A stretch of 64,000 nucleotides of DNA from Sulfuritalea sp. (GTDB taxonomy: Bacteria > Pseudomonadota > Gammaproteobacteria > Burkholderiales > Rhodocyclaceae), in assembly GCA_023700805.1 (NCBI GenBank), contig JAMPYF010000001.1, forward strand, positions 1-64,000. Direction: 5' to 3'. Position 1 is the first letter of the stretch; each line of letters opens with the position of its first letter. The notes below the pieces were generated by a model. It saw nothing but the letters and a program-made list of their open reading frames with translations. It was not told the origin of the DNA and ran no database searches. Below are positions 28,537-45,830 of this stretch, piece after piece. The position numbers and the translations under genes are program-made.

Positions 28537-30054
28537 ATGATGATCCGTTTCCCGGATTCATTGGCCGCGGCGGCGCTGGCCTATCTAGCGGCGCCCTCCT
28601 TCGTCTTCCTGCTCGCCTGGTTGCGACCGCCGCTGGGTCTGGCGGCAGCTGCCATGCTGGCCATCGCCCTGTATCAGTTACTCAAACGCCTGCCTCCAGC
28701 AGCCGCGCCCCATACCCGATCGGCATTGCTCTTCCTAGTGATCCTGGCTTTCGCCTGGGCCGCCCTCGGTGGTGCCGGGCATTTCGTCTACGCCAACAGC
28801 GACTGGCGCACCCGCGACGCTGTCTACGGCGACCTGATCCTGTCGGCATGGCCGCCGGCGTATGGACTGCACGATGGCGTGCCGCTGATACTGAGGACCG
28901 CCATGGGCTACTACCTCCCGCCCGCCCTGCTGGCAAAACTGGCGGGGATCGAGTTCGCCGCGCTGATACTATTCGGCTGGACTGCGCTCGGCGTAGCACT
29001 GTTCCTGCTCCTGCTGCCGCTGCCGCGACGGCTGGGTTGGCGCCTTATCCTCCACGGCTTGGTGGTGGTCTTCTTCAGCGGCATGGACTGGCCCGCGATC
29101 GCACTGGTACACGGTCATCTCCCCATGTTCCCCCTGCCGCTCGAGTGGTGGCGGCCATGGACCTACACTTCTCTAACGGGGCAACTGTTCTGGGCGCCAA
29201 ACCATGCGCTGGCCCTCTGGCTGGGGACCGCCCTGTTCTATCGCCATCGCGAAAATCCGGTCCTGCCGGTACTGGGATTGGTACTGCTTCCCCTGCTTCT
29301 GCTCTGGACCCCGTTCGCGGTCATCGGCCTCCTGCCCTGGTTCCTGTGGGGAACGATTCGGGCACGGCCGCCGACAGGGTCGCCTGCACTCGGCACCACG
29401 GCAGTGCAATGGGCCTCCGGCACGATACTCACTGCGGTCGTCGTCAGCCTGCTCACCCGTCCCGCGATTGCCGCAGCTTTTGCGCTTGCAGAACCGGCGG
29501 GTGGCAACGCCGCGGCGAAGGCCGCCGGCATCGACGGCGACCTGATTGCAGCCTACGTCCAGTTCGTCGCCTTCGAGTTCGGCCTGCTCGTCCTGCTGTT
29601 GCGGCCGAACCATGCCGACGCCAAACAGGCCTTGGCGATTGCCGCCGGTCTGCTGCTGCTGCTGCCCCTCGTCAGCCTGGGACCTTCGAACGACTGGCTG
29701 CTGCGGGTATCGACGCCGAGCCTGCTGATCCTGCTGTGTCTGGCACTGGCCGAACTTGACGTGCCGGGGCGAGATATCCGCCGCTCGCTTCGCCTGACCG
29801 CAATGGTCGCGATCCTGGTCCTCGGGGCCATCACGCCGGTCTTCGAGATTTCCCGTGCCCTTCTCTGGCCGCGAACGCCGCCCAACTATGGACAAACCCT
29901 GGTCGAGCAACAGGCCGGCTTCCTGGCCCCGCACTACGTCGGGCGGCTCGACCTCGCCACGCTGCGGGCGATCTTCAAGACGCCGACGTCGGTGCCGGCC
30001 GCGGCTGATCGCCAGAGGCTGTTGTCGCCGTCCATGCGTCATCCGCCATCTTGA
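28537..30054 (+). CDS. Polytopic GT-C-like membrane protein
   Basis: A 505-residue integral membrane protein with roughly ten hydrophobic segments. A periplasmic loop after the third segment carries NSDWRTRDAVYGDLILSAWPPAYG and GYYLPPALLAKLAG, a pattern I associate with GT-C-type transferases that use polyprenyl-phosphate sugars. It would use the product of the GtrB-like enzyme (inference). ATG at 28537 with another directly after. Its last 80 bp overlap, tail to tail, the 3' end of the opposite-strand OGT gene. Confidence 0.65.
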   Translation: MMIRFPDSLAAAALAYLAAPSFVFLLAWLRPPLGLAAAAMLAIALYQLLKRLPPAAAPHTRSALLFLVILAFAWAALGGAGHFVYANSDWRTRDAVYGDLILSAWPPAYGLHDGVPLILRTAMGYYLPPALLAKLAGIEFAALILFGWTALGVALFLLLLPLPRRLGWRLILHGLVVVFFSGMDWPAIALVHGHLPMFPLPLEWWRPWTYTSLTGQLFWAPNHALALWLGTALFYRHRENPVLPVLGLVLLPLLLLWTPFAVIGLLPWFLWGTIRARPPTGSPALGTTAVQWASGTILTAVVVSLLTRPAIAAAFALAEPAGGNAAAKAAGIDGDLIAAYVQFVAFEFGLLVLLLRPNHADAKQALAIAAGLLLLLPLVSLGPSNDWLLRVSTPSLLILLCLALAELDVPGRDIRRSLRLTAMVAILVLGAITPVFEISRALLWPRTPPNYGQTLVEQQAGFLAPHYVGRLDLATLRAIFKTPTSVPAAADRQRLLSPSMRHPPS

Positions 30055-31930
30055 AGTAGAGGCTCTCGAGGTCGCGCGTAAATCCCGCCATGTCGAAGAG
30101 CGGAGCCGTTTGGCGCGCCAACTTCAGCCGCTCGCGCAAACCGGCAAGCCGGGCGCGATCATGATACAAATCCAGCACCAGCCTCGCGTAGCCTTCATCG
30201 TCGTCGGCAATCAGTTCCGGCAACCCGGCAGCACTGAGCAGGCTCGCGCCGACCCGACCGGCAAAGGTGTCGCCCAATTTCGCAACCATCGGCACACCCG
30301 CCCAAAGCGTATCGGCGCCGGTCGAATGAGAATTGTAGGGAAAGGTATCCAGCGCCAGATCGGCAAGTTGCAGACGGCCGAAATGGTCCTTCGACGAGTT
30401 GACATAGCGTGCCAATATCAGGCGGCTTGGATCCATACCGCGACGACCAAATTCTTTCTGCAGATTTGCGGCGACGGTATCGTTGTGACGGGGCAGCCAC
30501 AGCACAGCGTCCGGCATTTCGGCCAGCATCCTGCACCACAAGTTGAACAAGCGGGGATTGAACTTATAGCTGTTGTTGAATGAGCAGAGGACAAATGCAT
30601 CGTCTGGCAGGCCCTCGGCCTGCCTCGTTGGCGGCGCGCCGATTGCCCGTCTCGTGTCAAAAGGCATGAAGCTGTGCGGCATGTGCACGATCTTCTCGGT
30701 GTATGCGTCCTGCGCCGAATGCGGCGTCGCGACAGCATCACCGATCAGGTAGTCCGCCAGTTTGGGATGCCCCAGCGTGCCGCAATACCCAAGCCAATTG
30801 ACCTGGATCGGGGCGCATCGGATTGCAAGGCTCTCAGTGCGCCCAATACCTGTCCATCCTCCCAGGTCCACCAGCAGGTCGATTTTGTCGCTCTGTATCG
30901 CTTGCGCCAGTGCATGGACCGACATGGTGCTGACATCGCGGAAATGCTCCAAAGTTTGCTCGAAATACTCGCGCAAGTCACTTTGATCGTTTTTACCTGT
31001 CGAGTAGGCAAATAGTTCGATACGGCTTCGATCGTGCCGGGCAAGGACCTCCGCAATAGCGACTGCCACCGCATGGCGTCGAAAGTCCTCCGACAGGTAA
31101 CCAACTCGTAGTCGTCCCGATCTATTTTTCCAGGTCGCCGCCAAATGGTTTCCCGAATCCAGATATGTCCTTGGTATTGATGCATACGCATAGCTTCTCG
31201 CCATCAACGCGTGGTCCTGGCTGTCAAGCCCAGGGATGCATAATGCAAACGCGGCATTCCCTACCGAATTGACGAAGTTGTTGGAAAGCTGCCTAAGCTT
31301 GGCACAGTTCTCCTCAATCTCGCCCCAATCGCACCGACGCAGGTCAATGAAGACCAGTGCGTAGTGCAAGCCTGCATCACTCGCAGTGGCATCGGAATGG
31401 AGAGCCCGACATACCGTGGAAGCTTCGTCCATCCGCTGCGCGTTTATCAATGCCCAGACCAACAGGTAGATTGCTTCCAGATAGTCGCCGGGATGGGTCT
31501 CAATGGCTTTCAGGAAGGCATCAATGGATTCATTCCAGCGCCCCATCCGGAAATACGCGACACCCATGTTCTTGTGGATTTCCGGATCGTTCGGTGCAAG
31601 ACGCAAGGCCTCCTGAAAATCTCCAATTGCGTCGTCCCAACGCAACCGGTTCGACAACGCGATTCCACGGTTGTTGTATAGCTCGCCATCAGTCGGCGCC
31701 AGGGGCAAGGCCCGCGCGATCACCTGCAAAGCCTCTTCGTCGCGCCCGAGGCACAACAAGGCAAACGACAGCGCCTTCAGCGCCAGTACGTGATGCCCAT
31801 TGCGTGCCAATACCGACCCTGCAAGCGCCTCGATGTCGGCGTATTGCCTCGCCTCGACCAGGCGCATCAGTTCGACCGAGTCGGCGTCCATCGCCGGTCG
31901 CCTTGCGCCCCGCTTGCCTATGATTTTCAT
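29975..31930 (-). CDS. TPR-SPINDLY O-GlcNAc transferase-like protein 1
   Basis: A 651-residue protein: N-terminal TPRs (about residues 15-190), then a GT41 (OGT/SPINDLY) catalytic region. The histidine of DFRRHAV and the lysine of CSFNNSYKFNP correspond to catalytic-site residues His498 and Lys842 of human OGT, and LDTFPYNSHSTGADTLWAGVP is the donor loop. Such enzymes add a sugar, GlcNAc or fucose, to Ser/Thr of cytoplasmic proteins. ATG at 31930 after TAGGGG; it starts 8 bp after the preceding OGT-methyltransferase gene and ends the pilin/ABC/OGT series. It overlaps the opposite-strand membrane-protein gene by 80 bp. Confidence 0.88.
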   Translation of the reverse strand: MKIIGKRGARRPAMDADSVELMRLVEARQYADIEALAGSVLARNGHHVLALKALSFALLCLGRDEEALQVIARALPLAPTDGELYNNRGIALSNRLRWDDAIGDFQEALRLAPNDPEIHKNMGVAYFRMGRWNESIDAFLKAIETHPGDYLEAIYLLVWALINAQRMDEASTVCRALHSDATASDAGLHYALVFIDLRRCDWGEIEENCAKLRQLSNNFVNSVGNAAFALCIPGLDSQDHALMARSYAYASIPRTYLDSGNHLAATWKNRSGRLRVGYLSEDFRRHAVAVAIAEVLARHDRSRIELFAYSTGKNDQSDLREYFEQTLEHFRDVSTMSVHALAQAIQSDKIDLLVDLGGWTGIGRTESLAIRCAPIQVNWLGYCGTLGHPKLADYLIGDAVATPHSAQDAYTEKIVHMPHSFMPFDTRRAIGAPPTRQAEGLPDDAFVLCSFNNSYKFNPRLFNLWCRMLAEMPDAVLWLPRHNDTVAANLQKEFGRRGMDPSRLILARYVNSSKDHFGRLQLADLALDTFPYNSHSTGADTLWAGVPMVAKLGDTFAGRVGASLLSAAGLPELIADDDEGYARLVLDLYHDRARLAGLRERLKLARQTAPLFDMAGFTRDLESLYFKMADDAWTATTASGDQPRPAPTSAS

Positions 31931-31938
31931 TACTGCCC

Positions 31939-34386
31939 CTACTTGGTCACAATCAGGTTGAGCGATATGCGCCTGCCGCAGACCGTCAGTTCTTTGGCAT
32001 CGCCGAACAATCCGAAGGACTCAACATGCTCTACGCTATCGAAACCGACATCGGCAAGGTAGTCCACCAGAAAATCGAAACCGAGGCCGCTTCGGTTCAT
32101 ATCGCGGTCCGTATCCTGCGTACCGAACATCGTCCGCATGACCTGGAACTTGTCGGCGTTGGACAATTCTGACGACGAGAACAATGCCGCCAGCTCATCG
32201 AAGTCGGGAACCGAAAGGTAGAGGGTCCCGCCCGGCACAAGAATGCGATGTATGTCGTTCAGGACCGGCAGCATGTCCTGCGGCGGCAGCCTCTGGAGCA
32301 CATGCGAAGCGAGAATCTCTGCACAGCTCTCGTCAGCAAATGTTGACAGGATGCGGACATCGCCAACGAAGTCGACGCAGCCGTCCTGAGCCGAGGCGAC
32401 TCTCCTCCAGCCTTCGCGCGGCGGCAAACCGTCGCCTATTTGCAGACGCATGGACTCGTCTTGGTCGTCGCGCGCTGTCGATTCGACGGGTAGATCTGCC
32501 GCAAACCGACTACAGTGGTCAAGCCACATACCGCGCAGCGCCTCGCCAAGATCCTTGCCGAACGCGCGGCTGTCCATGAGCCGGCTGGCGAGCATCCGCG
32601 CGCGCATTCCGCGGCGCAGCGCGACGAACCTGCCGGAATCAGCCGCGAGGCCGCTGGCAATACTCAGGTATTCGTCCGGGGTCTGAGCGATCAACTCCGG
32701 CAAACCCAGATTCATCAGCAGGCTTTCGCCCACTCTTGCTGCATGGCGGTCGCCCTTCAAGGCGATGACGGGCACCCCCATCCAGAGCGCCTCGCAGGTC
32801 GTGGTCGTACCGTTGTACGGAAAGGTGTCGAGCGCGATGTCGATCTCCGAATACATGCCAAGGTGATTTTCGAGGCCGGCGACCTGGGCATGGACGTCGA
32901 TCCGCATTGGATCAATTCCTCGGTCGACGAAGCGATTCAACAGACCGCGACGACTCATCTCGTCCTCGGTGCCCTGGATCGACTTGAGCACTAGGCGGGA
33001 CGATGGAATTGCTTCAAGCAAGCGCAGCCAAAGTTCCAGGCAACTGTCCGATATCTTGATACGGTTGTTGAAGGAACCAAAAGTCAGGTAACCGTTCTTG
33101 AGCAGCGGCGGATCGGCAACATCCAGCTGATCAAGCGGCGCCGTGTAGCAAAGAAAAGTATTCGGAAGACGCCACAGAGTTTCGGAATGAAACTCGTCGC
33201 CTCCCCCCTCGGGATCTGCCCAGCGATCCGTCAGGCGATAGTCCATGCAATCGAGACCGGTGGTGTTCGGATACCCCAGATAGGTTACCTGGACCGAAGC
33301 CGCCCGACGTGCAAACAAGCGCATTCTGTTGCTGCCGGTGTGTCCGGCCAGATCCACGAGAATATCGATCCGATCACGGCGAATTTGCTCCAATACAACG
33401 TCATCAGTCTTTGAGAAGATATCTCGCCACTGATGAAACATCGGCTTCAGATTTATGCTGACAGTATCCTCGGAATGGTGATCGAAATAGGCATAGAGCT
33501 GGAACCGCCTGTGATCGAGATGCGCCAGCGCGCCTTGCACGAAATATCCTACCGAATGACGTCGGAAGTCGGCCGACACGAAACCCACGCGCAGCCGCCG
33601 CTCTGAATCCGGCCGCTGGGCTGCCGCTTCAGGCTCCTGCACTGGACCGAGCCTGCGGCGAATCCAGCTGCCAAACTCGGCATGCCTTTGCCAAACCAGC
33701 TCGCGCGGCATTTGCCGATAATTCGCCCAGAACGCCCGATTCGCGTGGGGTATGGGATCGTCGTCGTCCAGCGCCATGGCTTGCAGATAAGCAGCGTCGC
33801 TTTCTTCGTAATGCCCGAGGGCCTGGAGAACGCCCCCAAGGGAAACCCAGGGCGATGCGACGGCGGGATCGATTTCGATCGCGCGACGCAGTTCCGCCAG
33901 GCTTTCATCTATCCGCCCCAACTTGCCGAGAGCTAGGCCCGCGCGTTCGATCGCCAGAGCCGAGTCCGGCTTGAGTTCACTGGCGCGACGCGCAAAATAT
34001 AGCGATTCGAGTGATCGCGAAGCGACAAACAGCAACCTGGCCAGATTGATGTGGGCCTCGAAATAGTTCGGATTATTCGCCAGTGCATTGCGGTAGCAGC
34101 GCTCGGCCTCGTCCCAGTTGCCGCGTGCGAAGAGCAGCACACCAAGATTGCCATAAGCCTCTACGTAGTACGGGGAAAGTCGAATGGCCTCGCGGTAGGA
34201 GGTTTCGGCATCGTCAGGCAGCCCTTGGCGGGCCTGGGCGGTCGCAAGTTTGAAATACCCCTTTGCCAGATCCGGCGCCGCTTCCACCGCCTGGCGATAA
34301 AGCGCCAGCGCGCCGGAAAGATCTCCGCCATCTCGTAGCCGATCGCCGCAGGCCAGCAGGTCCTCTAGACCTTCCGCCGAAATCAT
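31939..34386 (-). CDS. TPR-SPINDLY OGT-like protein 2 fused to a methyltransferase
   Basis: An 815-residue three-part protein. TPRs fill about residues 5-220; a GT41 domain follows with DFRRHSVGYF, FGSFNNRIKI (OGT histidine and lysine both kept) and LDTFPYNGTTTTCEALWMGVP. The last 170 residues are a compact SAM-methyltransferase-like domain (VDFVGDVRILSTFADESCAEILASHVLQRL, then VLNDIHRILVPGGTLYLSVPDFDEL). A typical motif I glycine loop is not obvious. The methyltransferase could modify the sugar added by the first half (inference). The ATG at 34386 has a poor ribosome site and is preceded by a 6-codon reading frame that ends on it. Confidence 0.88.
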   Translation of the reverse strand: MISAEGLEDLLACGDRLRDGGDLSGALALYRQAVEAAPDLAKGYFKLATAQARQGLPDDAETSYREAIRLSPYYVEAYGNLGVLLFARGNWDEAERCYRNALANNPNYFEAHINLARLLFVASRSLESLYFARRASELKPDSALAIERAGLALGKLGRIDESLAELRRAIEIDPAVASPWVSLGGVLQALGHYEESDAAYLQAMALDDDDPIPHANRAFWANYRQMPRELVWQRHAEFGSWIRRRLGPVQEPEAAAQRPDSERRLRVGFVSADFRRHSVGYFVQGALAHLDHRRFQLYAYFDHHSEDTVSINLKPMFHQWRDIFSKTDDVVLEQIRRDRIDILVDLAGHTGSNRMRLFARRAASVQVTYLGYPNTTGLDCMDYRLTDRWADPEGGGDEFHSETLWRLPNTFLCYTAPLDQLDVADPPLLKNGYLTFGSFNNRIKISDSCLELWLRLLEAIPSSRLVLKSIQGTEDEMSRRGLLNRFVDRGIDPMRIDVHAQVAGLENHLGMYSEIDIALDTFPYNGTTTTCEALWMGVPVIALKGDRHAARVGESLLMNLGLPELIAQTPDEYLSIASGLAADSGRFVALRRGMRARMLASRLMDSRAFGKDLGEALRGMWLDHCSRFAADLPVESTARDDQDESMRLQIGDGLPPREGWRRVASAQDGCVDFVGDVRILSTFADESCAEILASHVLQRLPPQDMLPVLNDIHRILVPGGTLYLSVPDFDELAALFSSSELSNADKFQVMRTMFGTQDTDRDMNRSGLGFDFLVDYLADVGFDSVEHVESFGLFGDAKELTVCGRRISLNLIVTK

Positions 34387-34403
34387 CCGTGATTCGCTTT
34401 CAT

Positions 34404-35294
34404 TTACCCGCGTCCGACCACATGCATAAAGGCCGATTCTAGCGAGAGCGTCGGTTTTACTTCAATCAAAACGTGGCCATTGGTTCGCAATTGGTCGAGC
34501 TTCTGCCAGAGATCCGTGCGCGGGACTTCCACGACCCACTGTCCGGACGCCTCGGCGTGCCAGCCACTGAGGGGATTGCTTCCCTGCGAACGCACGATCA
34601 CGATGTCTTCAGCGCCCACGAGTTCGCTCGGCGATCGGACCGAACGCAGGCGGCCCTCGTGGATGAGCCCGAAGCGGTCCGCCAGGCGCTCCACATCGTG
34701 TAGTACATGAGAAGTAAAGAACAAGGTACCGCCCTGTCCCTTGTATTCGGCAAGCAAGTCGACAACTTCTCGCCGTCCGATCGGATCCAGGCCGGACAAT
34801 GGTTCATCGAGGATCAACAAGCGTGGCCCTATGCACATCGCCTGCGCCAGCGCGACACGCTGGGTCATGCCTTTGGAAAACGATCGTACCGGGGAACGCG
34901 CAACTTTTGCCAAATCGAAGCGTTCGAGCCATTTCAGCGCATGCGCAGAAATGGCACCATCCCGTGTCCGATGCAGGCGCATGCTCATTTCGAGAATTTC
35001 GAACGGCGTCAGGTAGTCATAGAGACAGGGATTCTCGGGGACATAGCCAACCCCGCGTCGCGCATCCGGGCACATGGCATCCTGGCCGAAGAGCAGCACG
35101 GTACCGGCTGTCGGCCGAGCGAGACCCATGAGAATACGGATCGTGCTGCTCTTGCCCGCGCCGTTCGGCCCGACAAAGCCGAAGGCTTCGCCCTTTTCAA
35201 TCTGCAGGGAAATGCCGCACACGGCGCGCACCCGTTGGCGCAACACACCCTTGGCATAGGTCTTTTCCAGATTGTCAATCTCTACTGCATACAT
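34404..35294 (-). CDS. ABC transporter ATPase, PilH-like
   Basis: A 296-residue ABC ATPase of the CcmA/NosF group: Walker A GPNGAGKSS, signature SFSKGMTQRVALAQAM, Walker B LLILDEPLSGLDP, and a C-terminal 80-residue extension. With the permease and accessory gene just upstream it forms a three-gene ABC module located directly after a type IV pilin, the arrangement of Myxococcus pilGHI, where the transporter is needed for pilus formation. The PilH comparison rests on order and family, not on alignment. It overlaps the preceding gene by one base (TGATG). Confidence 0.85.
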   Translation of the reverse strand: MYAVEIDNLEKTYAKGVLRQRVRAVCGISLQIEKGEAFGFVGPNGAGKSSTIRILMGLARPTAGTVLLFGQDAMCPDARRGVGYVPENPCLYDYLTPFEILEMSMRLHRTRDGAISAHALKWLERFDLAKVARSPVRSFSKGMTQRVALAQAMCIGPRLLILDEPLSGLDPIGRREVVDLLAEYKGQGGTLFFTSHVLHDVERLADRFGLIHEGRLRSVRSPSELVGAEDIVIVRSQGSNPLSGWHAEASGQWVVEVPRTDLWQKLDQLRTNGHVLIEVKPTLSLESAFMHVVGRG

Positions 35295-36142
35295 CAGTGA
35301 CCACCCGCATTTCCAGAATCTCGAAAAATCGGCTCCCCCGCTTGATTCACTGCGAACCCAATGCCCAGAGGATCGACCGGAACCCGATCGATCAGGCCAG
35401 CGTCGACCAGGTCTTCGATTCTCGCCGGAGCCTGGCCGCGCATTGTTCGATATTCCTGCGCCAACATCGTCAAGCGATCGAGCTGAAGCAGACGCTCAGT
35501 TCGCTTCTTCATGTAGCGACGAAACCCTCCTGGCGGAGCCTCCTCCGCCATCCGCCCGACGATGCGGGCTGCCTCGCCGGTATGGTAGCCGCGTTCTATC
35601 CATCGTGCGGCAAGCGCCTGCAAGCCCCATTGCTCGGCTATATCATCCGTGCGAGCTACTCCCTCGAGCAGCGCCTGGGCAGCCGCTGCAGGATTCTTCT
35701 CGAAATGATAAAGATTGAAAGCGTAGTAGAACAGCGGTGTCCAGTCGCGCGGTCTTGCATCTGCCGCGCGACGCAGGACGTACTGAGCCGCTGGCACCAG
35801 ATGGGGCTCCGACAGGATCGCGGCGGCGATGTAGTAGTTGTCTTCATGCGCCGGGTTGAGCCATGAAATATCCTTCTGCAACATGGCCTGAATCGCGAAC
35901 TCTTCCGGTTTCATGCGAAAGGTATCAGCGACCAGGACGCGAAATCCAGCCAGATTGGCAGCCAGATAGCGGTCGCCACCAGCCAGCATGACCTGCGCTG
36001 CGAGCGGCAGGCGCACCATAAGTTCAGGGCCGCGCAATGACAAGCGCTGGCCAGAGAGCACATTTACCGCGAAAAGATAAACCAGCAATGCGGATACCAG
36101 TATCGCCAGAAAGCCCTTCGAAGGTAATCTTGCACGACTCAC
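35294..36142 (-). CDS. Membrane-anchored ABC accessory protein, PilG-like
   Basis: A 282-residue protein with one N-terminal signal-anchor (FLAILVSALLVYLFAVNVLSG) and a periplasmic helical, TPR-like body (AAAILSEPHLVPAAQYVLRRAADARPRD). Its C-terminus, MRGQAPARIEDLVDAGLIDRVPVDPLG, resembles the tail of major pseudopilins (GspG), where a DP-x-G loop is conserved. Position between permease and ATPase suggests the accessory subunit of the transporter, comparable to PilG of Myxococcus (inference). Start ATG at 36142, 2 bp after the permease stop. Confidence 0.6.
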   Translation of the reverse strand: MSRARLPSKGFLAILVSALLVYLFAVNVLSGQRLSLRGPELMVRLPLAAQVMLAGGDRYLAANLAGFRVLVADTFRMKPEEFAIQAMLQKDISWLNPAHEDNYYIAAAILSEPHLVPAAQYVLRRAADARPRDWTPLFYYAFNLYHFEKNPAAAAQALLEGVARTDDIAEQWGLQALAARWIERGYHTGEAARIVGRMAEEAPPGGFRRYMKKRTERLLQLDRLTMLAQEYRTMRGQAPARIEDLVDAGLIDRVPVDPLGIGFAVNQAGEPIFRDSGNAGGH

Positions 36143-36144
36143 CT

Positions 36145-36948
36145 CTATCCAAACTCCCGGCGCTCAAGCGCCTTCCAGCCAAGAGCGAGCACGATTGCAG
36201 CATAGGCCAAAGCCATCAGCACGGACCAGGTCAAGGACTGCAAATGGGGCGGCACTCCGTACAGCGGCCAGTCGCGCCAATCCAGGCGCGAAAGGTCCGG
36301 GATCAGCCAACGAATCGCCTCGACTGGCCCCCCCCAGGTTTCAAGGAAAGGGGTATCGCCATCGGCACCACGCGCAATATAGTCTGCCGCCGCACCCAAG
36401 GATTTGCCAGCGATCGCGAAGCCTGCGCCGATCAGCAGCGGCAATAGCGATACCGTTGATACTGTTGCCGTCGCCAGGGCGACGGCCGCAACCACACTGA
36501 CGTCGAGCACCAGGCCCGCGATCGTCGCCCAATACGGCAAGCCAAGACTGACGCGAAATTCCTGATCAAAATTAGGGCTCGACAGGCCGACAGCCAGCAA
36601 CAGGCTTAGCGCCAAAATAGCGGCCGACAGGCAGACCAGACCGAGTACGGCAAAATATCGCCCCAGCAGGAAAGCCGCACGCGAAACCGGGTAAGAAAGT
36701 GACTGCAGAATGATCTTGCGATCGACCTCGCGCGCCACGAGATCCTGCACCCAGAACAGGCTAAGCAGGATGAGCGTGAAGCGCATGCCCGAGAATCCGA
36801 TATCGAGGGCAACCGTGCGCGGATGGCGGGGCGAGAAACTCGCCGAAAGATAGGCCACGGCCACCAGAACAAGACCCAAGGCGAACACGATCTGTACGCT
36901 GCGTCCCCTGATTCCCGAGCGCAATCCGGAAACAACGAATTCAAACAT
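36145..36948 (-). CDS. ABC-2 type permease, PilI-like
   Basis: A 267-residue membrane protein with about six hydrophobic helices, of the ABC-2/NosY type; FWVQDLVAREVDRKIILQSLSYPVSRAAFLLGRY is a typical cytoplasmic loop of this family. ATG 36948 is taken as start; an in-frame TTG at 36969 would overlap the terminator stem of the pilin unit. It forms the membrane part of the ABC module with the next two genes. Confidence 0.8.
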   Translation of the reverse strand: MFEFVVSGLRSGIRGRSVQIVFALGLVLVAVAYLSASFSPRHPRTVALDIGFSGMRFTLILLSLFWVQDLVAREVDRKIILQSLSYPVSRAAFLLGRYFAVLGLVCLSAAILALSLLLAVGLSSPNFDQEFRVSLGLPYWATIAGLVLDVSVVAAVALATATVSTVSLLPLLIGAGFAIAGKSLGAAADYIARGADGDTPFLETWGGPVEAIRWLIPDLSRLDWRDWPLYGVPPHLQSLTWSVLMALAYAAIVLALGWKALERREFG

Positions 36949-36963
36949 TGGCTGATGTGCAGA

Positions 36964-36994
36964 AATCAAACGGGCGCACCGTATGGCGCGCCCG
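36964..36994 (-). terminator. Terminator after the pilin bicistron
   Basis: A 7-bp GC stem (36971-36977 with 36988-36994) with a 10-nt loop lies 27 bp downstream of the small secreted gene. On the minus strand it is followed by TTTGATTTC, a short T-rich tract. It would separate the pilin bicistron from the ABC module, allowing read-through. The stem is short, so strength is uncertain. Confidence 0.5.
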
Positions 36995-37020
36995 TCGATA
37001 CTGCAAGGAACTGAAACGAA

Positions 37021-37395
37021 TCAGCCCGCCGTCGGGGCGAAGGTGCTCGTCGCCGCCGCGCTGGCATCGGTTGCGGCACAACCGGTAGCGCACGCAGACG
37101 CACTGGAAACCGAGCCACCCGCCGTGGAGCCTGCAAACGAACGCCCCCCCTTGACCGAGCCAGAACCGACACGCATATAGGTCGCATTCGCACTTTCGGC
37201 CGTCAGATGCACATTGGCCGAGCACTTCGCCGTGAACGCATTTTTGACGAAGTCCGTTGCGGCACCAGCACCCGGGTTACTCGTTGCGCTGGAAGCCGAC
37301 GAACCGCCTGCACAAACCGCCGTTGACGCAGCATTGGCAGTACCGGACGCAATCGCACTGGCAGCAAGCACGGAAGCCAAAATTACCTTTTTCAT
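37021..37395 (-). CDS. Secreted Ser/Thr/Ala/Gly-rich protein, pilin partner candidate
   Basis: A 124-residue protein with a clear signal peptide (MKKVILASVLAASAIASGTANA, cleavage near residue 22-23) and a mature part of about 100 residues that is very rich in Ser, Thr, Ala and Gly. Four cysteines (28, 58, 102, 106) could form two disulfides. It follows the short pilin by 26 bp with its own AGGAGA ribosome site. In Geobacter a short pilin gene is likewise followed by a small secreted partner gene (PilA-C). No homology can be claimed, but position and export suggest the same role. The Ser/Thr content makes it an obvious candidate for O-glycosylation by the neighbouring OGTs. Confidence 0.7.
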   Translation of the reverse strand: MKKVILASVLAASAIASGTANAASTAVCAGGSSASSATSNPGAGAATDFVKNAFTAKCSANVHLTAESANATYMRVGSGSVKGGRSFAGSTAGGSVSSASACATGCAATDASAAATSTFAPTAG

Positions 37396-37421
37396 AAATA
37401 TCTCCTATTGGTCGAGTCGCG

Positions 37422-37604
37422 TTAGTTGGTCGAATTCGCGACGGACTGAGTCAACAGATTCTTGGCGTCCGACTGAGCAGCCTTGTCTTCGCCCTTCTTT
37501 GTGTACTCACTGAACTGGGGAATCGCGATGGCGGCCAAGATACCGATGATGGCAACCACGATCATCAACTCGATCAGGGTAAATCCCTTTTGCAGCTTTT
37601 TCAT
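37422..37604 (-). CDS. pilA: Short type IV pilin
   Basis: A 60-residue prepilin: leader MKKLQKG, prepilin-peptidase site G7/F8, then [23 protein letters not shown] with Glu5 of the mature protein. The mature chain has only 53 residues and lacks the globular C-terminal head of normal 140-160-residue pilins, as in Geobacter PilA (61 residues). Aromatic residues in the mature chain are only F1, F24 and Y27. ATG 37604 is decided by AGGAG seven bases upstream; the 20-codon upstream extension is not a pilin leader. It heads a bicistron with the secreted partner, with a 16-bp palindrome in its leader. Confidence 0.92.
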
Positions 37605-37625
37605 GCATTTCTCCTTTCGAAAGAG

Positions 37626-37641
37626 CCCAAGCCGGCTTGGG
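37626..37641 (-). promoter_or_regulatory. Palindrome in the pilA leader
   Basis: A perfect 16-bp palindrome (CCCAAGCC and its complement) sits 22-37 bp upstream of the pilA ATG, just upstream of the ribosome site. It could be an operator or, in the transcript, a 5'-UTR hairpin. No T-tract follows, so it is not a plain terminator. Confidence 0.45.
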
Positions 37642-37832
37642 TAAACTTGGTCAAGCAGGAACAATGCCCGAATTGATAGCGTCCTGCGGTATCAATGGCA
37701 TCAAGCACAATGAGGTTCCGCGCCATGCGATTGAGCGCAAATCGCGTCTTTACGCGACCACAAAGTCGACCAGGTGCGTCACGCCCTGACAATTTTTGGC
37801 ACTTTTGGCCCCGAACTGGCGTTTGCTGCCGG

Positions 37833-39806
37833 TCATGTGGTCGCCTCCAAAGTCCGGCAATGCCGTTGCCACATGGCTCTATAGCGCGATTCGAGTTCGC
37901 CGCTGAATCTCTGAGTATCGAAGAGTGGCGATGACAGCCGGTTCATTCTCAGTTTGTCGCGAATCGACAGTAAACGACGGGTATTTGACGCCAGATCGAG
38001 TGCTTTTGCGCGGTACTCCTCGATCGAACCGACCGCCAACTCTCCCAAGCCTACTGCATTCAGCATGCTACCGGAAACACGACTGGCAAATGTCTCGCCC
38101 ATCATCGTCAACACGGGAAGCCCAGCCCAAAGAGCGTCGCTTGTAGTGGTGTGGGCGCCGAAGGGAAATGTGTCCAACGCCAGGTCGGCCAGCGCCAGGC
38201 GCGCCAAATGCAGTTCTGGAGGCCTTGCAGCGGCGAATATGAGCCGGGAGTCGGCGATTCCTCGCCGACTTGCTTCGGCCACAAGATTTATCTTTGCCAG
38301 ATCGTTGGCAGCGTACAGCCACAGCACGCTGCCGGGAAGTTCGCTCAGGAGATCGCACCAACAATAGAAGATCTCTGGGGTGATCTTGAGGGGGCGGCTG
38401 AAACAACAGAACACGAATCCATTTTCCGGCAAGCCCTCTTCCTGACGGGTTCGCGTTTTTCCGATCGGGCGACTTGAATCATTCGGATGGCAGCAATTTG
38501 GCATCAGGACCAATTCTTCCGCGAAATTCTGCTGGTCCGCAAGAGGTGTAGAAATCGGATCCCCGATCAGGTAGTCGACCAAAACTCGACTGCCCAGCGT
38601 ACCGGAGTAACCCAGCCAATTGACCTGAATCGGCGCGGGTCGGTAGCCGAGCGCTGCAGTCCTGGTATTGCCGGTCCAACCAGCAAGGTCGACAAGTATG
38701 TCTATCGATTCATCGCGAATGCGCCCGGCAAGGATCTCAGGTGAACATCCCCGAACATCGTGGAAAGAATCGCAGGCTGCAACAATCCGTCGCCTCATCA
38801 CGCCCTGGTCGTCGCTGCCATAGGAAAAGGCGTGTATCTCGAACTCTGCATGCTCGTGATGCTCCAGCACCCCGATCAGCAAACGCATGACCGCATGGTC
38901 ATGAAAATCCGCTGAAAGGTAGGCGATGCGCAAGCGCCTGGCCGGATCCGGATTAACGCTGGCAGGCATCTGAACAGCTGGGTGAGGAAGCAGGGATTCC
39001 GCAAAATCCCCGGTCAGCGCCAGTTGCTCTTCTGCAGTGATTTCAGGCAGCAAAAGAAATGTAAATGGCTCCAGCGGAGTCCTGCCCTCGCCGATGAATT
39101 GCTTGCAGCGGTCGACCATTTCCGGAATCTGTCGCCAATCGCACAACTCCAGCCGACAAAAGAGAAGCTGGGACAATAGGTGGAAGTCCTCTGTGTCCTG
39201 CGGCCTCCCTGGACACAGGCTGGCGAGAAGACGTTCGCTGTCTTGTGGACGTCCCGCATCGGCAAAAGCAAAACCGGCAAAGCGCAATGCATTCGCCTGG
39301 CCCTCGCCGTCAAGTGCGGCCGCCTGCAAGAATGCCCGGGCAGCATCCAGATGAGCTGACCTTGCATAACGAAGCCGTCCGAGTTCAATCCATGCCGCCT
39401 GATCAGCCTGGTCAAGTTCGGTTACGCGCAGGAATGCTGCCTCTGCCTCCCGGGCGCGCTTCATGCCATTTAGCAGTATCCCGAGATTGAACCAAAGATT
39501 CGGATCTTCCGGACTAAGTTCAATGCCTGACCGCAGCGTGGACTCTGCATCAGACATTTTTCCCGCCATATGCTGGACGTTGGCCAGATCAGACCATGCT
39601 TCCTGATTCCCTGGCTCAGCTTCACAAGCAATTTGGAGTTGCCGTATTGCCTCTTCGTAGTCGCCAGTCTGCGTTAGCACGACCCCGTAAAAATGCAGAT
39701 CCCGAACCTTGACCGGAGGCTGTGTCAATACTTGCTCAAGTATGGCTTTTGCTTCGTCATGGCGGCCGCTTTGCCATGCAATCAATGCCATCTCCCTCAA
39801 TTCCAT
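37833..39806 (-). CDS. TPR-SPINDLY O-GlcNAc transferase-like protein 3
   Basis: A 657-residue protein with N-terminal TPRs (about residues 1-200; AEPGNQEAWSDLANVQHMAGKMSDAESTLR) and a GT41 catalytic part with DFHDHAVMRLL (histidine kept), FCCFSRPLKITPEI (lysine kept, but SR replaces the usual NN) and LDTFPFGAHTTTSDALWAGLP. It lies upstream of pilA on the same strand; the 228 bp in between contain the pilin leader. Together with the two OGT-like genes past the ABC module it brackets the pilin locus. A role in glycosylating pilin-locus proteins is an inference from this arrangement. Confidence 0.88.
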   Translation of the reverse strand: MELREMALIAWQSGRHDEAKAILEQVLTQPPVKVRDLHFYGVVLTQTGDYEEAIRQLQIACEAEPGNQEAWSDLANVQHMAGKMSDAESTLRSGIELSPEDPNLWFNLGILLNGMKRAREAEAAFLRVTELDQADQAAWIELGRLRYARSAHLDAARAFLQAAALDGEGQANALRFAGFAFADAGRPQDSERLLASLCPGRPQDTEDFHLLSQLLFCRLELCDWRQIPEMVDRCKQFIGEGRTPLEPFTFLLLPEITAEEQLALTGDFAESLLPHPAVQMPASVNPDPARRLRIAYLSADFHDHAVMRLLIGVLEHHEHAEFEIHAFSYGSDDQGVMRRRIVAACDSFHDVRGCSPEILAGRIRDESIDILVDLAGWTGNTRTAALGYRPAPIQVNWLGYSGTLGSRVLVDYLIGDPISTPLADQQNFAEELVLMPNCCHPNDSSRPIGKTRTRQEEGLPENGFVFCCFSRPLKITPEIFYCWCDLLSELPGSVLWLYAANDLAKINLVAEASRRGIADSRLIFAAARPPELHLARLALADLALDTFPFGAHTTTSDALWAGLPVLTMMGETFASRVSGSMLNAVGLGELAVGSIEEYRAKALDLASNTRRLLSIRDKLRMNRLSSPLFDTQRFSGELESRYRAMWQRHCRTLEATT

Positions 39807-39980: not shown

Positions 39981-41603
39981 CTAACGCAGAATCGTCTGCT
40001 CATCCACCGCGTCGATTTGCCCCGCATCGAGAAACTGCTCCGCATAACGCCGATATACGCCCTGCTTGACGAATACATCGAACAGATCGGGGTCGATATG
40101 GCCGCCCTTCTTGAAGTTGGCCATGATGGACATGGCCTGCGACAGCTTCATGCCGTGCTTGTAGGGGCGGTCGCGGGCGGTCAGGGCCTCGAAGATGTCG
40201 GCGATGCCCATCATCCTGGCCTGGACCGACATCTGCTCTCGCGTCAGCCCCTTGGGATAGCCTTTGCCGTCCATCCGTTCGTGATGGCCTCCGGCGTACT
40301 CGGGTACCCGGGTCAGGTGTTTCGGCCACGGCAGCTGTTCCAGCATCTTGATGGTGGCGACGATGTGATGGTTGATGACGTCGCGCTCCTTCAGCGTCAG
40401 CGTTCCGGCGCGGATGGTCAGGTTGACGACTTCGTCGGCGGTGAGGAACTCGGTTTCGACGGCATCGACGTTGCGCCACTTGCGGCCGCTGCCTATGTCG
40501 CGCACGCGCTGCAGGTCCTCGTCCTTCATGGCCTCGCCACCGACATTGGCCTTGCGCAGGAACTCCCGGTCCGCGTCGAGGGCGCGGACTTCATCCTGAT
40601 AGGCGTGCCAGATACGGTCTTCCGCCTCGGGGTTGACGTTTTGGCGCAGGGCCAACTGTTTGCGCAGCGCGTCCAGTTCCGCGTCGCGCTTGAGCACTTC
40701 GAAGCGGGTGTCGATCAGTTGGATGCGGTCGAACAGGGTTTGCAGCTTGGTCGCCTTGTCCACCACATGAACCGGCGTCGTCACCTTGCCGCAGTCGTGC
40801 AGCAGACCGGCGATCTTGAGTTCGTAGCGATCGCGCTCGTCCATCTTGAACGAAGCCAGGGGACCTTCCTGCGTTGCGTCGGCCGCTTCGGCCAGCATCA
40901 TGGTCAGGGCCGGCACGCGCTGGCAATGGCCGCCGGTGTAAGGCGATTTCTCGTCGATCGCCAGGTTGATCAGGCTGATGAAGGCCTCGAACAGTTCTTC
41001 GAGCTGGGTGATCAGCAGGCGGTTGGTCAGGGCGATGGCGGCCTGGGAGGCGAGCGACTCGGCCAGGCTCTGGTCGGCGGATGAAAAAGTCGTAACCTCG
41101 TGTGTATGCGGATCGAGCGTGTTGATCAGTTGCAGCACGCCGATGATCTCGCCCTCATGATTCTTCATCGGCACCGTGAGGAAAGACTGCGATCGGTAGC
41201 CTGTGCGCGCGTCGAAGCTGCGGGTGCCCGAAAAGTCGAAACCCGCTTCGGTGTATGCATCGGCAATATTGACGGTCTTGTCGTGAATGGCGGCATAGGC
41301 GGCCACCATCGAATCATTCGACTCGCCCTTGTCGTTGATCAGCGGCAGATTCGGAAAGTTGATCGCATTGCCGGTGGTGCCACCCATCGCGATGTGCAGC
41401 GAATCGGTGCGCAGGATCTCGAAGCGCAGCGCGCGACCGTCTTCGGTTACGCGATAAAGCGTGCCGCCGTCGGCATGGGTGATGGTCTTGGCTGCAATCA
41501 GTATCGACTCGAGCAGGCGATTGATGTCGCGCTCCTTGGAGAGCGCGGCGCCGATTGCATTCAGCTGTTCGAGACGGCGAAACAGATTGGCGGAACTGTC
41601 CAT
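39981..41603 (-). CDS. GAF-HD-GYP protein, probable c-di-GMP phosphodiesterase
   Basis: A 540-residue soluble protein with an N-terminal GAF domain (about 15-190; DGGTLYRVTEDGRALRFEILRT) and a C-terminal HD-GYP domain. The HD motif is in LKIAGLLHDCGKVTTP near residue 267 and the GYP motif in HHERMDGKGYP near 437, so catalytic residues look intact. HD-GYP enzymes hydrolyse c-di-GMP (or cGAMP). It is the last gene of the signalling series, 9 bp after the GAF-PilB-like ATPase, whose GAF domain it resembles. The 174 bp to the next gene hold no clear terminator. Confidence 0.9.
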   Translation of the reverse strand: MDSSANLFRRLEQLNAIGAALSKERDINRLLESILIAAKTITHADGGTLYRVTEDGRALRFEILRTDSLHIAMGGTTGNAINFPNLPLINDKGESNDSMVAAYAAIHDKTVNIADAYTEAGFDFSGTRSFDARTGYRSQSFLTVPMKNHEGEIIGVLQLINTLDPHTHEVTTFSSADQSLAESLASQAAIALTNRLLITQLEELFEAFISLINLAIDEKSPYTGGHCQRVPALTMMLAEAADATQEGPLASFKMDERDRYELKIAGLLHDCGKVTTPVHVVDKATKLQTLFDRIQLIDTRFEVLKRDAELDALRKQLALRQNVNPEAEDRIWHAYQDEVRALDADREFLRKANVGGEAMKDEDLQRVRDIGSGRKWRNVDAVETEFLTADEVVNLTIRAGTLTLKERDVINHHIVATIKMLEQLPWPKHLTRVPEYAGGHHERMDGKGYPKGLTREQMSVQARMMGIADIFEALTARDRPYKHGMKLSQAMSIMANFKKGGHIDPDLFDVFVKQGVYRRYAEQFLDAGQIDAVDEQTILR

Positions 41604-41612
41604 GTCCGTTCC

Positions 41613-43991
41613 CTATTTGATGCAGACGGCCCGCACCTGCTTGAGATCGGTCACGCCCTGCAGCGCCTTTTCCAGGCCGTCCATCTTGAGGGTCAGCATG
41701 CCGTCCTCCAATGCTTGGGCGAACAATTGCGCGACACGGGCGTGCTCCTGGATCAGCTTCTTCAGGGGTTCCGTACCGATCATCAGTTCGTGCAGGCCGA
41801 CGCGTCCCTTGTAGCCGCTGCCGCCGCAGGTGTCGCATCCCTTGGCCCGGGTGAACACCAGATGCCCGTCCTTGCCGTAGTCCTTGATCAGGCGCTCCAG
41901 CGTCGCCTTGTAGGCGGCGTCCTTGTCCTTGAGGAAAGGCCCGGTGTTATCGAGCTCGCTGCAATACTCCTTCATGAACAGCCTGACCTCATCTGCATCC
42001 GGCGTATAGCTTTCCTTGCACTTGCACAGGCGCTTGGCCAGGCGCTGGGCCAGAATGCCCAGCAGCGCGTCGGAGAAGTTGAAGGGGTCCATGCCCATGT
42101 CGAGCAGGCGGATGATGGATTCCGGCGCGCTGTTGGTGTGAAGGGTGGCGAACACCAGGTGGCCGGTCAGGGACGCCTCGATGCCGATGCCGGTGGTTTC
42201 GGCGTCGCGCATTTCGCCGACCATGATGATGTCCGGGTCGGCCCGCAGGAAGGCCTTCATCACCGTGGCGAAATCCATCACCTTTTTGTTCACCTGCACC
42301 TGACGCAGGCCTTTTTGCGTGATTTCGACCGGGTCTTCGGCGGTCCAGATCTTGGTATCGACGGTGTTCAGATAACCCAGCACCGAGTGCAGCGTGGTCG
42401 TCTTGCCCGAACCGGTCGGACCGCAGACGAAGAACAATCCGTATGGCTTGGAAATCGTTGCCTTGAGCTTGGTCAGGTTGGTCGGCAGCACGCCCAGCTT
42501 GTCCAGCGGGATCGGCTCGCCGCCAGCCAGGATACGCATCACGACATCCTCGACGCCGCCGGTGGAGGGAATCGTCGCCACCCGCAGTTCGATGTCCAGC
42601 GGGCCGTATTTCTTGAACTTGATCTTGCCGTCCTGCGGCTTGCGGCGCTCGGCGATATCGAGATCGCACATGATCTTGAGCCGCGCCACCATCGCGTTGC
42701 GGTAACTGGCCGGCACTTCGATGTACTTCGCCAGCGAACCATCGCGGCGGAAGCGGATCAACACCTTATCCTTGCCCAGACCAGGTTCGATGTGGATGTC
42801 CGAAGCACCCTGCTGATAGGCATCGATGATGATCTTGTTGACCAGCTTGACCAGTTCATTGTCCGCCGCCGCGGAGATGTCGTCGGCGGCACCGCCTTCG
42901 CCCTCGCCCTCGTCCTGATCGAGGGTCGACAGCAGGTCGCCTACCGAACTGTCGTCGGTAAAGCCGGGAACGCCGCTTGCACCGAACAACTGATCGACCG
43001 TTTGCCCGAATTCGTGATTGGTGGTGACTCGATAGACGACCTTGGCCCTTGGAAACACGTTGTTGACGACGCGCGAACCCTTGACCTGCTCGGGGTCCAT
43101 ACAAACCACCATGACGCCTTCCGGTCCTTCTTCCACCGGAGCCCATTTGGCCTGCTCCAGGAAATCCCGCTTCAGGTTCTTGAGCAGATCGACCGGCTTG
43201 ATACGGTCGGTCCGGAACGGCTCGTAGGGCACATTGAAGAACTTGCCCAGGGCCACGCCCAGCGCCTGATGCTTGACCTGGAACTCATTGACCAGCACTT
43301 CCTCGATGTCGAGATTCTTGCGCCGCGCGGTGCGCTGCGCAAGCTCCAGTTCCTGCGCCGAAATGACCGCGTCGGAGACCAGGAAGTCATATTTTGTCTT
43401 GACCGCCTGGGCGGGCTTGCTGCGCTGATTGAAGGCGATCGCCAGGGTCTCGCACAGTCCCTTGACGCCTTCCTGTGCGACTACAGCGAATGGCGTGCCC
43501 GCCTTGTTGTTGATGATCTGGACCACACCCAGCAGTTCGCCGCTCTGTGCATCCACCACCGGCGCCACCAGCATCTGCTTGGTGCGATAGCCGGTGCGCT
43601 TATCAACTTCCTGCAGGAAGCGCAGCGAAGGATTGATCGCCTTGAGCTCCGCATCATCATAGACGTCGCGGATATTCACGGTCTTCTTGGCCAGCGCGAC
43701 ATGACCGGCAATACTCTGGTCGGCGATCGGCAGGCGCAAATCCTTGAAGGAATTCAGGCCGGTCTTCACCTTGGAAACGATGGATGCCTTGTCATCGCCT
43801 ACGGTATAAATCGTGAGCCGATCGGCATTGAACAAGCTGCAAATATCGCCGGACAGCTCCAGCATGATTTCGTCGATGTTGGATGTCGCATGAATCTTGT
43901 TGGTAACGACCTGGAGGTTCTTGAAAAATGCAAGGCGGGAGTCCACATCGGACCCGGCGGCCTCGGGGGATGCAGTAGGCACGGCACTCAT
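41613..43991 (-). CDS. GAF-MshEN-PilB/GspE secretion-type ATPase
   Basis: A 792-residue protein: GAF domain at about 20-190 (SNIDEIMLELSGDICSLFNADRLTIY), an MshEN-like N-domain at about 205-340, then the type II/IV assembly ATPase with Walker A GPTGSGKTTTLH near 524, Walker B/Asp box LRADPDIIMVGEMRDAETT, and the zinc tetracysteine (CKCKESY and CDTCGGSGYKGRVG). Ordinary PilB/GspE have no GAF domain. The first MshEN motif reads KYDFLVSDAVIS instead of RLGxxLVxxgxI, so c-di-GMP binding is doubtful. It may be the motor for the short pilin 4 kb downstream; no other pil or gsp genes are in the window. Overlaps the preceding gene by ATGA. Confidence 0.9.
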   Translation of the reverse strand: MSAVPTASPEAAGSDVDSRLAFFKNLQVVTNKIHATSNIDEIMLELSGDICSLFNADRLTIYTVGDDKASIVSKVKTGLNSFKDLRLPIADQSIAGHVALAKKTVNIRDVYDDAELKAINPSLRFLQEVDKRTGYRTKQMLVAPVVDAQSGELLGVVQIINNKAGTPFAVVAQEGVKGLCETLAIAFNQRSKPAQAVKTKYDFLVSDAVISAQELELAQRTARRKNLDIEEVLVNEFQVKHQALGVALGKFFNVPYEPFRTDRIKPVDLLKNLKRDFLEQAKWAPVEEGPEGVMVVCMDPEQVKGSRVVNNVFPRAKVVYRVTTNHEFGQTVDQLFGASGVPGFTDDSSVGDLLSTLDQDEGEGEGGAADDISAAADNELVKLVNKIIIDAYQQGASDIHIEPGLGKDKVLIRFRRDGSLAKYIEVPASYRNAMVARLKIMCDLDIAERRKPQDGKIKFKKYGPLDIELRVATIPSTGGVEDVVMRILAGGEPIPLDKLGVLPTNLTKLKATISKPYGLFFVCGPTGSGKTTTLHSVLGYLNTVDTKIWTAEDPVEITQKGLRQVQVNKKVMDFATVMKAFLRADPDIIMVGEMRDAETTGIGIEASLTGHLVFATLHTNSAPESIIRLLDMGMDPFNFSDALLGILAQRLAKRLCKCKESYTPDADEVRLFMKEYCSELDNTGPFLKDKDAAYKATLERLIKDYGKDGHLVFTRAKGCDTCGGSGYKGRVGLHELMIGTEPLKKLIQEHARVAQLFAQALEDGMLTLKMDGLEKALQGVTDLKQVRAVCIK

Positions 43992-45055: not shown

Positions 45056-45057
45056 GT

Positions 45058-45825
45058 TCAGATTTCGAAAATCTGGTTGTTCTGCAACATGCCGGGGCGG
45101 AATTCACCGATGCAGTCTTCGATCTCCTGCATCGTCAGTTCGATTTGTCCCGGCTTCAAATGGGTGATGAAGACCTCGGCGTCGCGCTGCAGGTGGGTCA
45201 GTTCTTCCAGCAGCATGCTCGGACACAAATGCAAGGATGCGACGGCCAGACGCTTCTCGCTGTCCGAGAAGGCGCACTCGATGATCAGGTAGCGCAGATT
45301 GCGAATCATGTTGACCTGATTCCACAGGTCGGGGCACGGCCCGGTATCGCCGGTAAACACCAGACTGCCGTGTCCGGAATCAAGGTGGTAGCCGACGGCC
45401 GGCACCGTGTGATTCGCCGGCAGGGGCATTATCTTGCGGCCATCGAGGTCCACTGCCTCGCCGACGCGTATCGTGGCGAAGCGCAGAAACGGCTTCTCCG
45501 GCGTCGGAATCACGCTGAAGTCAGGCCAGATCGCCCAATTGAACACATGGGCGCGGATGATCTCCAGAGTCGCCTCGGTCGCATGCACCGTCACCGGGCG
45601 GTTGCGCATGTCGCCCACCGTATCGACCATGAATGGCAGGCAGGCAAGATGGTCCAGGTGCGAGTGGGTAATGAACACATGGTCGATCTGGGCGAGTTCG
45701 GCGATCGCCAGATCGCCTACCCCCGTTCCGGCATCGATCAGGATATCGTTATCGACCAGCAGCGAGGTCGTGCGCAGATGACGCCCGCCGATTCCGCCAC
45801 TACATCCGAGGATTCGTACCTTCAT
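45058..45825 (-). CDS. Metallo-beta-lactamase-fold cyclic-nucleotide phosphodiesterase candidate
   Basis: A 255-residue metallohydrolase with the dimetal motif HSHLDH at residues 54-59 and later ligands in ANHTVPAVGYHL and FTGDTGPCPDLW. The overall form fits the class II cAMP phosphodiesterase/RNase Z-like group. As it lies 5 bp after an adenylate cyclase gene and 2 bp before a cyclic-nucleotide-binding gene, hydrolysis of the cyclase product is the most economical role, but this is inference; many relatives have other substrates. Confidence 0.75.
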   Translation of the reverse strand: MKVRILGCSGGIGGRHLRTTSLLVDNDILIDAGTGVGDLAIAELAQIDHVFITHSHLDHLACLPFMVDTVGDMRNRPVTVHATEATLEIIRAHVFNWAIWPDFSVIPTPEKPFLRFATIRVGEAVDLDGRKIMPLPANHTVPAVGYHLDSGHGSLVFTGDTGPCPDLWNQVNMIRNLRYLIIECAFSDSEKRLAVASLHLCPSMLLEELTHLQRDAEVFITHLKPGQIELTMQEIEDCIGEFRPGMLQNNQIFEI

Positions 45826-45830
45826 GAGTC

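Follow-up and report, generated by a model that had tools for sequence, protein, structure and literature searches.

A widespread pilus module with a putative split type IVa pilin, PilG-linked ABC genes and variable glycosyltransferases in Sulfuritalea sp. and its relatives

The window analysed in this study is a 64,000-nucleotide stretch (positions 1 to 64,000 of contig JAMPYF010000001.1, assembly GCA_023700805.1) from a draft genome of Sulfuritalea sp. (NCBI family Sterolibacteriaceae; 4.16 Mb, 89% complete). On its minus strand lies a pilin locus which, judged by homology and gene order, is an old and widespread pilus module whose glycosylation gene varies. The locus consists, in order, of a glycosyltransferase of family GT41 (OGT-like; 37833..39806), a 60-amino-acid prepilin (37422..37604), a small secreted protein (37021..37395), a strong hairpin (36969..36996), a permease of an ATP-binding cassette (ABC) system (36145..36969), a PilG-like anchored protein (35294..36142), an ABC ATPase (34404..35294), an OGT-methyltransferase fusion (31939..34386) and a third OGT (29975..31930). 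All of these features sit where the initial annotation, made from the window alone, had placed them. The prepilin and its secreted partner resemble a type IVa pilin split in two, as known from the metal-respiring Geobacter, and the locus most likely builds a type IV pilus from them; it joins gene sets so far studied apart.

Conservation of the module

Homologues of the PilG-like protein were found in 30 of 61 genomes, the window's own included. Of the 28 relatives' loci, 24 have the genes for pilin, partner, permease, PilG and ATPase in this order, which is beyond chance; the remaining four showed no pilin, no partner or neither of the two, and two of these loci end at a contig edge. A class sample of 369 genomes yielded 10 matches to the PilG profile, among them the window's own and one that matches only in the pseudopilin tail. 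In a genome of the same class (L082:152-5297), a Geobacter-like pilin of full length, a further pilin and a Wzy_C-type ligase are followed by PilG, ATPase and permease, these three in the order reported for Myxococcus xanthus.

For a wider comparison, a set of named genomes was used (the best 80 of 138 relatives, giving 76 beta- and gammaproteobacterial loci after L084, L091, L099 and L100 were left out; neighbourhood labels from simple picking of open reading frames (ORFs) and not from a gene caller). The five genes occur in order in 59 of the 76 loci; some of the 17 incomplete ones have lost genes at a contig edge, and in others no partner was detected. The named relatives comprise Accumulibacter, Thauera, Rhodocyclus, Thiobacillus, Chitinimonas, Comamonadaceae, Pseudomonas, Stutzerimonas and others, together with four outside the Beta- and Gammaproteobacteria: a Syntrophobacterales bin, Desulfonauticus, a Deferribacteraceae bin and a bin titled Deltaproteobacteria.

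In the phylum to which the Syntrophobacterales bin belongs (G428, locus L084; hereafter the other phylum), 74 of 297 genomes have PilG-type proteins. In 31 stretches from this phylum, which were hand-picked and are not a random sample, seven split-pilin loci (L195–L199, L208 and L209) carry PilG and ATPase genes behind the PilA-C gene, six of them with a recognised permease. In other stretches of this set the module follows pilins of full length, and its gene order is then often ATPase-permease-PilG. PilG and the ABC genes thus accompany split and full-length pilins alike, and some of the full-length heads match PilA-C.

Geobacter-like loci, i.e. those of the taxonomic order of genome G584, recognised by their pilins, were represented by 20 loci hand-picked from the best 30 pilin matches in 117 genomes. 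All 20 contain PilA-C and a glycosyltransferase-like gene, 19 a short prepilin, 19 PilG with the ATPase and 16 a recognised permease. Six show the order pilA-N, pilA-C, glycosyltransferase, permease, PilG, ATPase, so that the ATPase is the sixth gene, whereas in the window it is the fifth counted from the pilin. Since the five-gene order is kept widely and across phyla, the locus is no chance combination in one betaproteobacterium. The initial annotation had regarded the union of a deltaproteobacterial-type pilus module with O-glycosylation as a new combination in a betaproteobacterium; this idea is not supported, as the ATPases of the Beta- and Gammaproteobacteria form one clade (see below) and a glycosyltransferase-like gene stands in all 20 Geobacter-like loci, only the enzyme class being different.

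The short prepilin and its secreted partner

The PilA-N-like prepilin of the window (60 amino acids, 53 in the mature form) has the class III signal and the helix of a type IVa pilin and no head. Its best matches among solved structures are to domain 1 of the geopilin (E 4.5e-16). The mature pilin has 52–54 residues in 89 of 90 beta- and gammaproteobacterial pilins and 51 in the other one. Behind residue 28, 64 of these 90 pilins have no aromatic residue and 26 have one, in contrast to two to six in 28 Geobacter-like pilins. Being shorter and without an aromatic tail, the beta- and gammaproteobacterial pilins lack the usual mark of conductive pilins (e-pilins), namely aromatic residues along the tail.

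The partner (124 amino acids) has a signal peptide, recognised by eye, and four cysteines in the mature part, which by a simple cut rule comprises 108 amino acids with 32 serines or threonines. It matches no Pfam or NCBIfam family above cut-off and its family is highly variable in sequence. A profile was built from 47 beta- and gammaproteobacterial partners, without any member from other phyla, and compared with the 3813 ORFs of the 31 stretches from the other phylum. Its top eight matches are all genes directly 3' of short pilins (E 9.7e-9 to 0.012); with the signal peptide removed (E 1.6e-6 to 0.031), seven of the top eight are such genes, the eighth being a full-length pilin. Alignment of the two partner families with hhalign gave 96.6% and E 5.9e-10, signal peptide included. 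The other-phylum partners match the solved geopilin domain 2, i.e. PilA-C (9egp, 7tgg and 6vk9; next match E 0.23), and of 39 full-length prepilin-like ORFs, 14 are matched by the PilA-C profile in the region that follows the helix (E 1.1e-4 or better). At the profile level, then, the adjacent secreted protein is homologous to PilA-C. Because of these links to PilA-C and to full-length pilin heads, the partner most likely belongs to a family of detached pilin heads, as a remote homologue of Geobacter PilA-C. The short pilin and partner of the Geobacter kind that had been recognised in the window are borne out by these matches.

A second copy of the short pilin gene was observed in the same operon in L048, L049, L051, L056 and L058 (e.g. 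L051:8221-8547), at times between partner and permease. Tandem short pilins also occur in some Geobacter-like loci.

The permease, PilG-like protein and ATPase

An ABC permease, an ATPase and an accessory protein beside a pilin gene, as in PilGHI-type systems, are all present in the window. The permease is of the ABC-2 type, with matches to ABC2_membrane families below cut-off (best E 4e-5). The start at ATG 36948 is likelier than the upstream one; it gives a protein of 267 amino acids, within the 266–281 of the relatives' permeases, and lies after the hairpin. The PilG-like protein has a single N-terminal hydrophobic anchor (by eye) and matches no Pfam family up to E 1 and no NCBIfam family above cut-off, and its profile matches PilG of other phyla (betaproteobacterial PilG against the others in hhalign: 99.9%, E 5e-34). 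Positions 220–260 of the PilG profile match a prepilin in another genome, which lends some support to the pseudopilin-like tail noted earlier in this protein.

The ATPase (PF00005, E 1e-29) was compared with a profile made from three ATPases that are linked to PilG and come from genomes other than those of Beta- and Gammaproteobacteria; only one of the three, L091, showed a prepilin in its stretch. The window's protein ranked first of 56 matches in its own genome, with 230 against 155 bits. In a tree of 104 rows, all 68 beta- and gammaproteobacterial ATPases form one clade (support 100/100) within the PilG-linked ATPases, and this clade joins the non-beta rows with a support of only 91/77; one of the four outgroup rows sits on a very long branch among other rows. 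These results support the placement of the ABC genes with PilG-linked ABC genes of deltaproteobacteria and not with other transporters, and the deltaproteobacterial type proposed for them at the outset, which a grouping with unrelated transporters and a gene order conserved in no relative would have contradicted, stands. As the 68 ATPases fall into one well-supported clade, the module looks old in the Beta- and Gammaproteobacteria.

Two other origins were considered for these genes. That they encode an unrelated transporter is ruled out by the ranking with the three-ATPase profile, and a recent transfer into this genus is rejected on the single clade, although its join to the non-beta rows is less well supported.

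Promoter-like box, hairpin and neighbouring genes

A sigma-54-like box, GGGCATTGTTCCTGC, lies 65 nucleotides before the pilin start (37655..37669, minus strand) and agrees with the consensus at 7 of 10 positions. Taken alone it is not significant, being equalled in 0.16 of shuffles. Among 24 loci with upstream sequence, which are related and hence not independent, the best box stands 61–68 nucleotides before the pilin start in 20; in 13 of 23 relatives it scores 9–10 of 10, 12 of these at that distance. The hairpin behind the partner gene (36996–36969, 12 pairs) was found in a pair scan for which 1.7 such sites would arise by chance in this region, and it has a folding z of -6.0 with dinucleotide shuffles, in keeping with the terminator first noticed after the secreted protein. 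Of 25 loci, 23 have a strong hairpin 3' of the partner gene, with z at or below -2.7 against mononucleotide shuffles. The conserved box and hairpin, with putative promoter and terminator activity, are consistent with a two-gene unit expressed at a higher level than the ABC genes.

Upstream of the locus, on the same strand, lies a signalling block that is linked to the pilin module in many relatives. It comprises a GAF and HD-GYP protein (39981..41603; Pfam), present in the loci of 21 of 28 relatives, a PilB-like motor with GAF, MshEN and T2SSE ATPase domains (41613..43991; Pfam and NCBIfam), and genes for a cyclic nucleotide (cNMP)-binding/rhodanese protein, a metallo-beta-lactamase-fold protein and a CHASE2-nucleotide cyclase (43988..48053). 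This block (39981–48053) suggests a dedicated pilus motor controlled by second messengers. At the other end of the locus, a convergent gene (28537–30054) encodes a membrane protein of 505 amino acids that has no Pfam or NCBIfam family and has relatives near the module in several loci, including that of Accumulibacter.

Glycosyltransferase genes of the locus

All three GT41 genes found in the window's genome lie at this locus. Each combines tetratricopeptide repeats (TPRs) with a PF13844 (Glyco_transf_41) match above cut-off: the OGT/SPINDLY-like enzyme of 657 amino acids before the pilin (E 1.2e-75), the fusion protein of 815 amino acids (E 2.4e-47), whose methyltransferase tail (Methyltransf_11) scores 20.3 bits, just below the Pfam cut-off of 21.2, and the enzyme of 651 amino acids (E 2.3e-82). 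Among the relatives, whose stretches of 10.7–20 kb were read, one to three GT41 genes stand beside the pilin in 16 of 28 loci, mostly 3' of the ATPase and on the same strand, and between core genes in L047, L059 and L061. A GT41 gene occurs somewhere in the genome in 45 of 61 genomes. Other enzymes at such loci are TPR proteins with a GT9-like domain, GT2/GT4 and PMT-like enzymes, the Wzy_C-type ligase of L082 and family-less membrane proteins, two kinds of membrane neighbour having no Pfam or NCBIfam family above cut-off. Overall, the glycosyltransferase kinds sought are present in 37 of 76 beta- and gammaproteobacterial stretches and absent from 39, of which at least two (L108 and L139) hold GT2-type genes.

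The OGTs may modify the pilin or its partner. A comparable enzyme is FlmG of Caulobacter, a cytoplasmic TPR-glycosyltransferase which needs pseudaminic acid made via NeuB (PMC7591256). Like the OGTs of the window, it combines TPRs with a soluble glycosyltransferase; it acts ahead of export, as they would, but on flagellin. A Caulobacter gene matching PF13844 is not equated with FlmG here. On the other strand of the window (24996–27016), a NeuB-family nonulosonic acid synthase and a GT2 glycosyltransferase adjoin the OGT operon and are a possible sugar supply.

Comparison with Geobacter and Myxococcus xanthus

The closest likeness is to the pilA-N/pilA-C genes (GSU1496/1497) of Geobacter and its xap genes, among them xapD (GSU1501), which codes for an ABC ATPase (PMC11934962, PMC5585712, PMC4974642). 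The six-gene order of Geobacter-like loci equals the gene count from GSU1496 to GSU1501, and on this ground, with gene numbers taken from the literature, the module would correspond to the xap genes; G. sulfurreducens itself was not recognised among the loci compared. The partner and PilG are homologous to their Geobacter counterparts at the profile level. The differences lie in the mature pilins (51–54 residues in Beta- and Gammaproteobacteria, 58–65 in Geobacter-like genomes; zero or one against two to six aromatic residues in the tail), in the ATPases, those of the Beta- and Gammaproteobacteria forming a clade of their own, and in the glycosyltransferase, which is of family GT41 in the window and of a membrane type in Geobacter-like loci.

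In M. xanthus, pilA, pilG, pilH and pilI form one operon (PMC3546991), so that, as in the window, an ABC permease, an ATPase and an accessory factor accompany the pilin (TCDB 3.A.1.144.5); there, however, the pilin is a single piece and the order is accessory factor-ATPase-permease, and the likeness is drawn from the literature. PilG/H/I are stated to be necessary for pilin translocation (PMC3724824) and to be needed for PilA export and pilus assembly (PMC3924187). A survey found matches to pilG/H/I in almost all bacteria examined and myxobacteria-like pil clusters in Geobacter and its relatives (PMC6060248), and part of the link between PilGHI and Geobacter is therefore already in print. The accessible part of Shu et al. 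makes no mention of partners or ABC genes. Among open-licence papers in PMC, a scope that leaves most subscription papers and preprints outside, no paper was found that joins split pilins, PilGHI/Xap genes and glycosyltransferases outside the deltaproteobacteria.

Discussion

The explanation that we favour, as a moderately probable one, is that the locus builds type IVa pili whose major pilin is split, and that it encodes an ABC machine that handles the pilin and glycosyltransferases that decorate the partner. The 60-amino-acid prepilin would provide the helix (PilA-N) and the Sec-secreted partner the detached head (PilA-C), and the two would pair as a heterodimer. Both would be overproduced from a sigma-54-type promoter and ended by the terminator hairpin, and read-through past the hairpin would give the ABC genes at a lower level. 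Permease, PilG and ATPase would form one inner-membrane machine that spends ATP on a step of the pilin prior to assembly, be it translocation, insertion into the membrane or the joining of its two halves. The glycosyltransferases of the locus may decorate the exposed partner, in this case by cytoplasmic GT41 enzymes, one of them fused to a methyltransferase, acting prior to export.

Several observations weigh against this explanation. A direct sequence search of the PDB with the partner family of the window's relatives gave no solved PilA-C, and a partner profile built at the genus level has weak matches in other phyla (best E 0.02, or 0.003 once the signal peptide is removed). The beta- and gammaproteobacterial partner profile finds only one of 39 full-length pilins below E 0.001, and the partner was undetected in several beta- and gammaproteobacterial loci that have the pilin and ABC genes. 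GT41 was not seen in 12 of the 28 relatives' stretches, and the serine/threonine fraction of the partner is not raised beside GT41 (0.268, n=16, vs 0.251, n=8; p 0.27). No experiment on any betaproteobacterial member turned up, and the Geobacter ATPase is published as a polysaccharide exporter (PMC4974642, PMC5585712).

This last point leads to the rather unlikely alternative that the ABC machine exports or flips a glycan, be it a lipid-linked donor for membrane glycosyltransferases decorating the pilin or, as for XapD, an exopolysaccharide (EPS). XapD (GSU1501) is described as an EPS or sugar exporter whose loss impairs growth on electrodes (PMC4974642, PMC5585712), and glycosyltransferase-like genes accompany all 20 Geobacter-like loci and, for the kinds sought, 37 of the 76 beta- and gammaproteobacterial stretches. 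The other 39 stretches are without these kinds, though (with GT2-type genes in at least L108 and L139), and the ATPase groups with PilG-linked ATPases, which are mostly beside pilins. Moreover, M. xanthus loses both motility and EPS when pilGHI is deleted (PMC5544727), and a defect in EPS can hence arise secondarily. This context, shared by both systems, suggests that one machine underlies PilGHI and Xap and that EPS loss may be secondary.

The OGT genes might instead have nothing to do with the pilus and belong to adjoining surface-polysaccharide genes, which would explain their linkage. The NeuB-family and glycosyltransferase genes on the opposite strand, the occurrence of GT41 elsewhere in relatives' genomes (45 of 61 genomes in all) and the serine/threonine content of the partners, which has no link to GT41, agree with this, but we regard it as improbable, as 16 of 28 relatives have GT41 in their pilin stretch, mostly on the same strand behind the ATPase and in three loci between core genes, and the window's genome yielded no GT41 gene outside this locus. 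It is more doubtful still that the partner is a secreted adhesin or chaperone travelling with the pilin and not a pilus subunit: its sequence is very variable and has low similarity to solved PilA-C, yet profiles link it to PilA-C and to full-length pilin heads, it follows the pilin in 24 of 28 loci, and a strong hairpin stands behind it in 23 of 25.

Beyond the favoured pilus locus with a split pilin, a broader reading can be put forward tentatively. The permease, PilG and ATPase may be a dedicated pilin-handling machine common to deltaproteobacterial lineages, Betaproteobacteria and some Gammaproteobacteria, which would carry out an energy-consuming and so far little-described step in making type IV pili; the Xap 'polysaccharide exporter' would be the same machine, with biofilm phenotypes secondary to the loss of properly made or glycosylated pili, and unrelated classes of glycosyltransferase would have been exchanged to decorate the detached head.

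The cargo of the PilGHI-type ABC system has been a standing question since 1998. By tying PilGHI (pilus) and Xap (polysaccharide) together, one conserved module makes it testable by deletion what this ABC system moves.

In the accessible parts of the open-licence PMC literature, split pilins are discussed chiefly for Geobacter and tied to conductive nanowires. That a two-part pilin occurs without the aromatic tail in Betaproteobacteria and some Gammaproteobacteria sets being short apart from being conductive, and supports a structural reason for the split.

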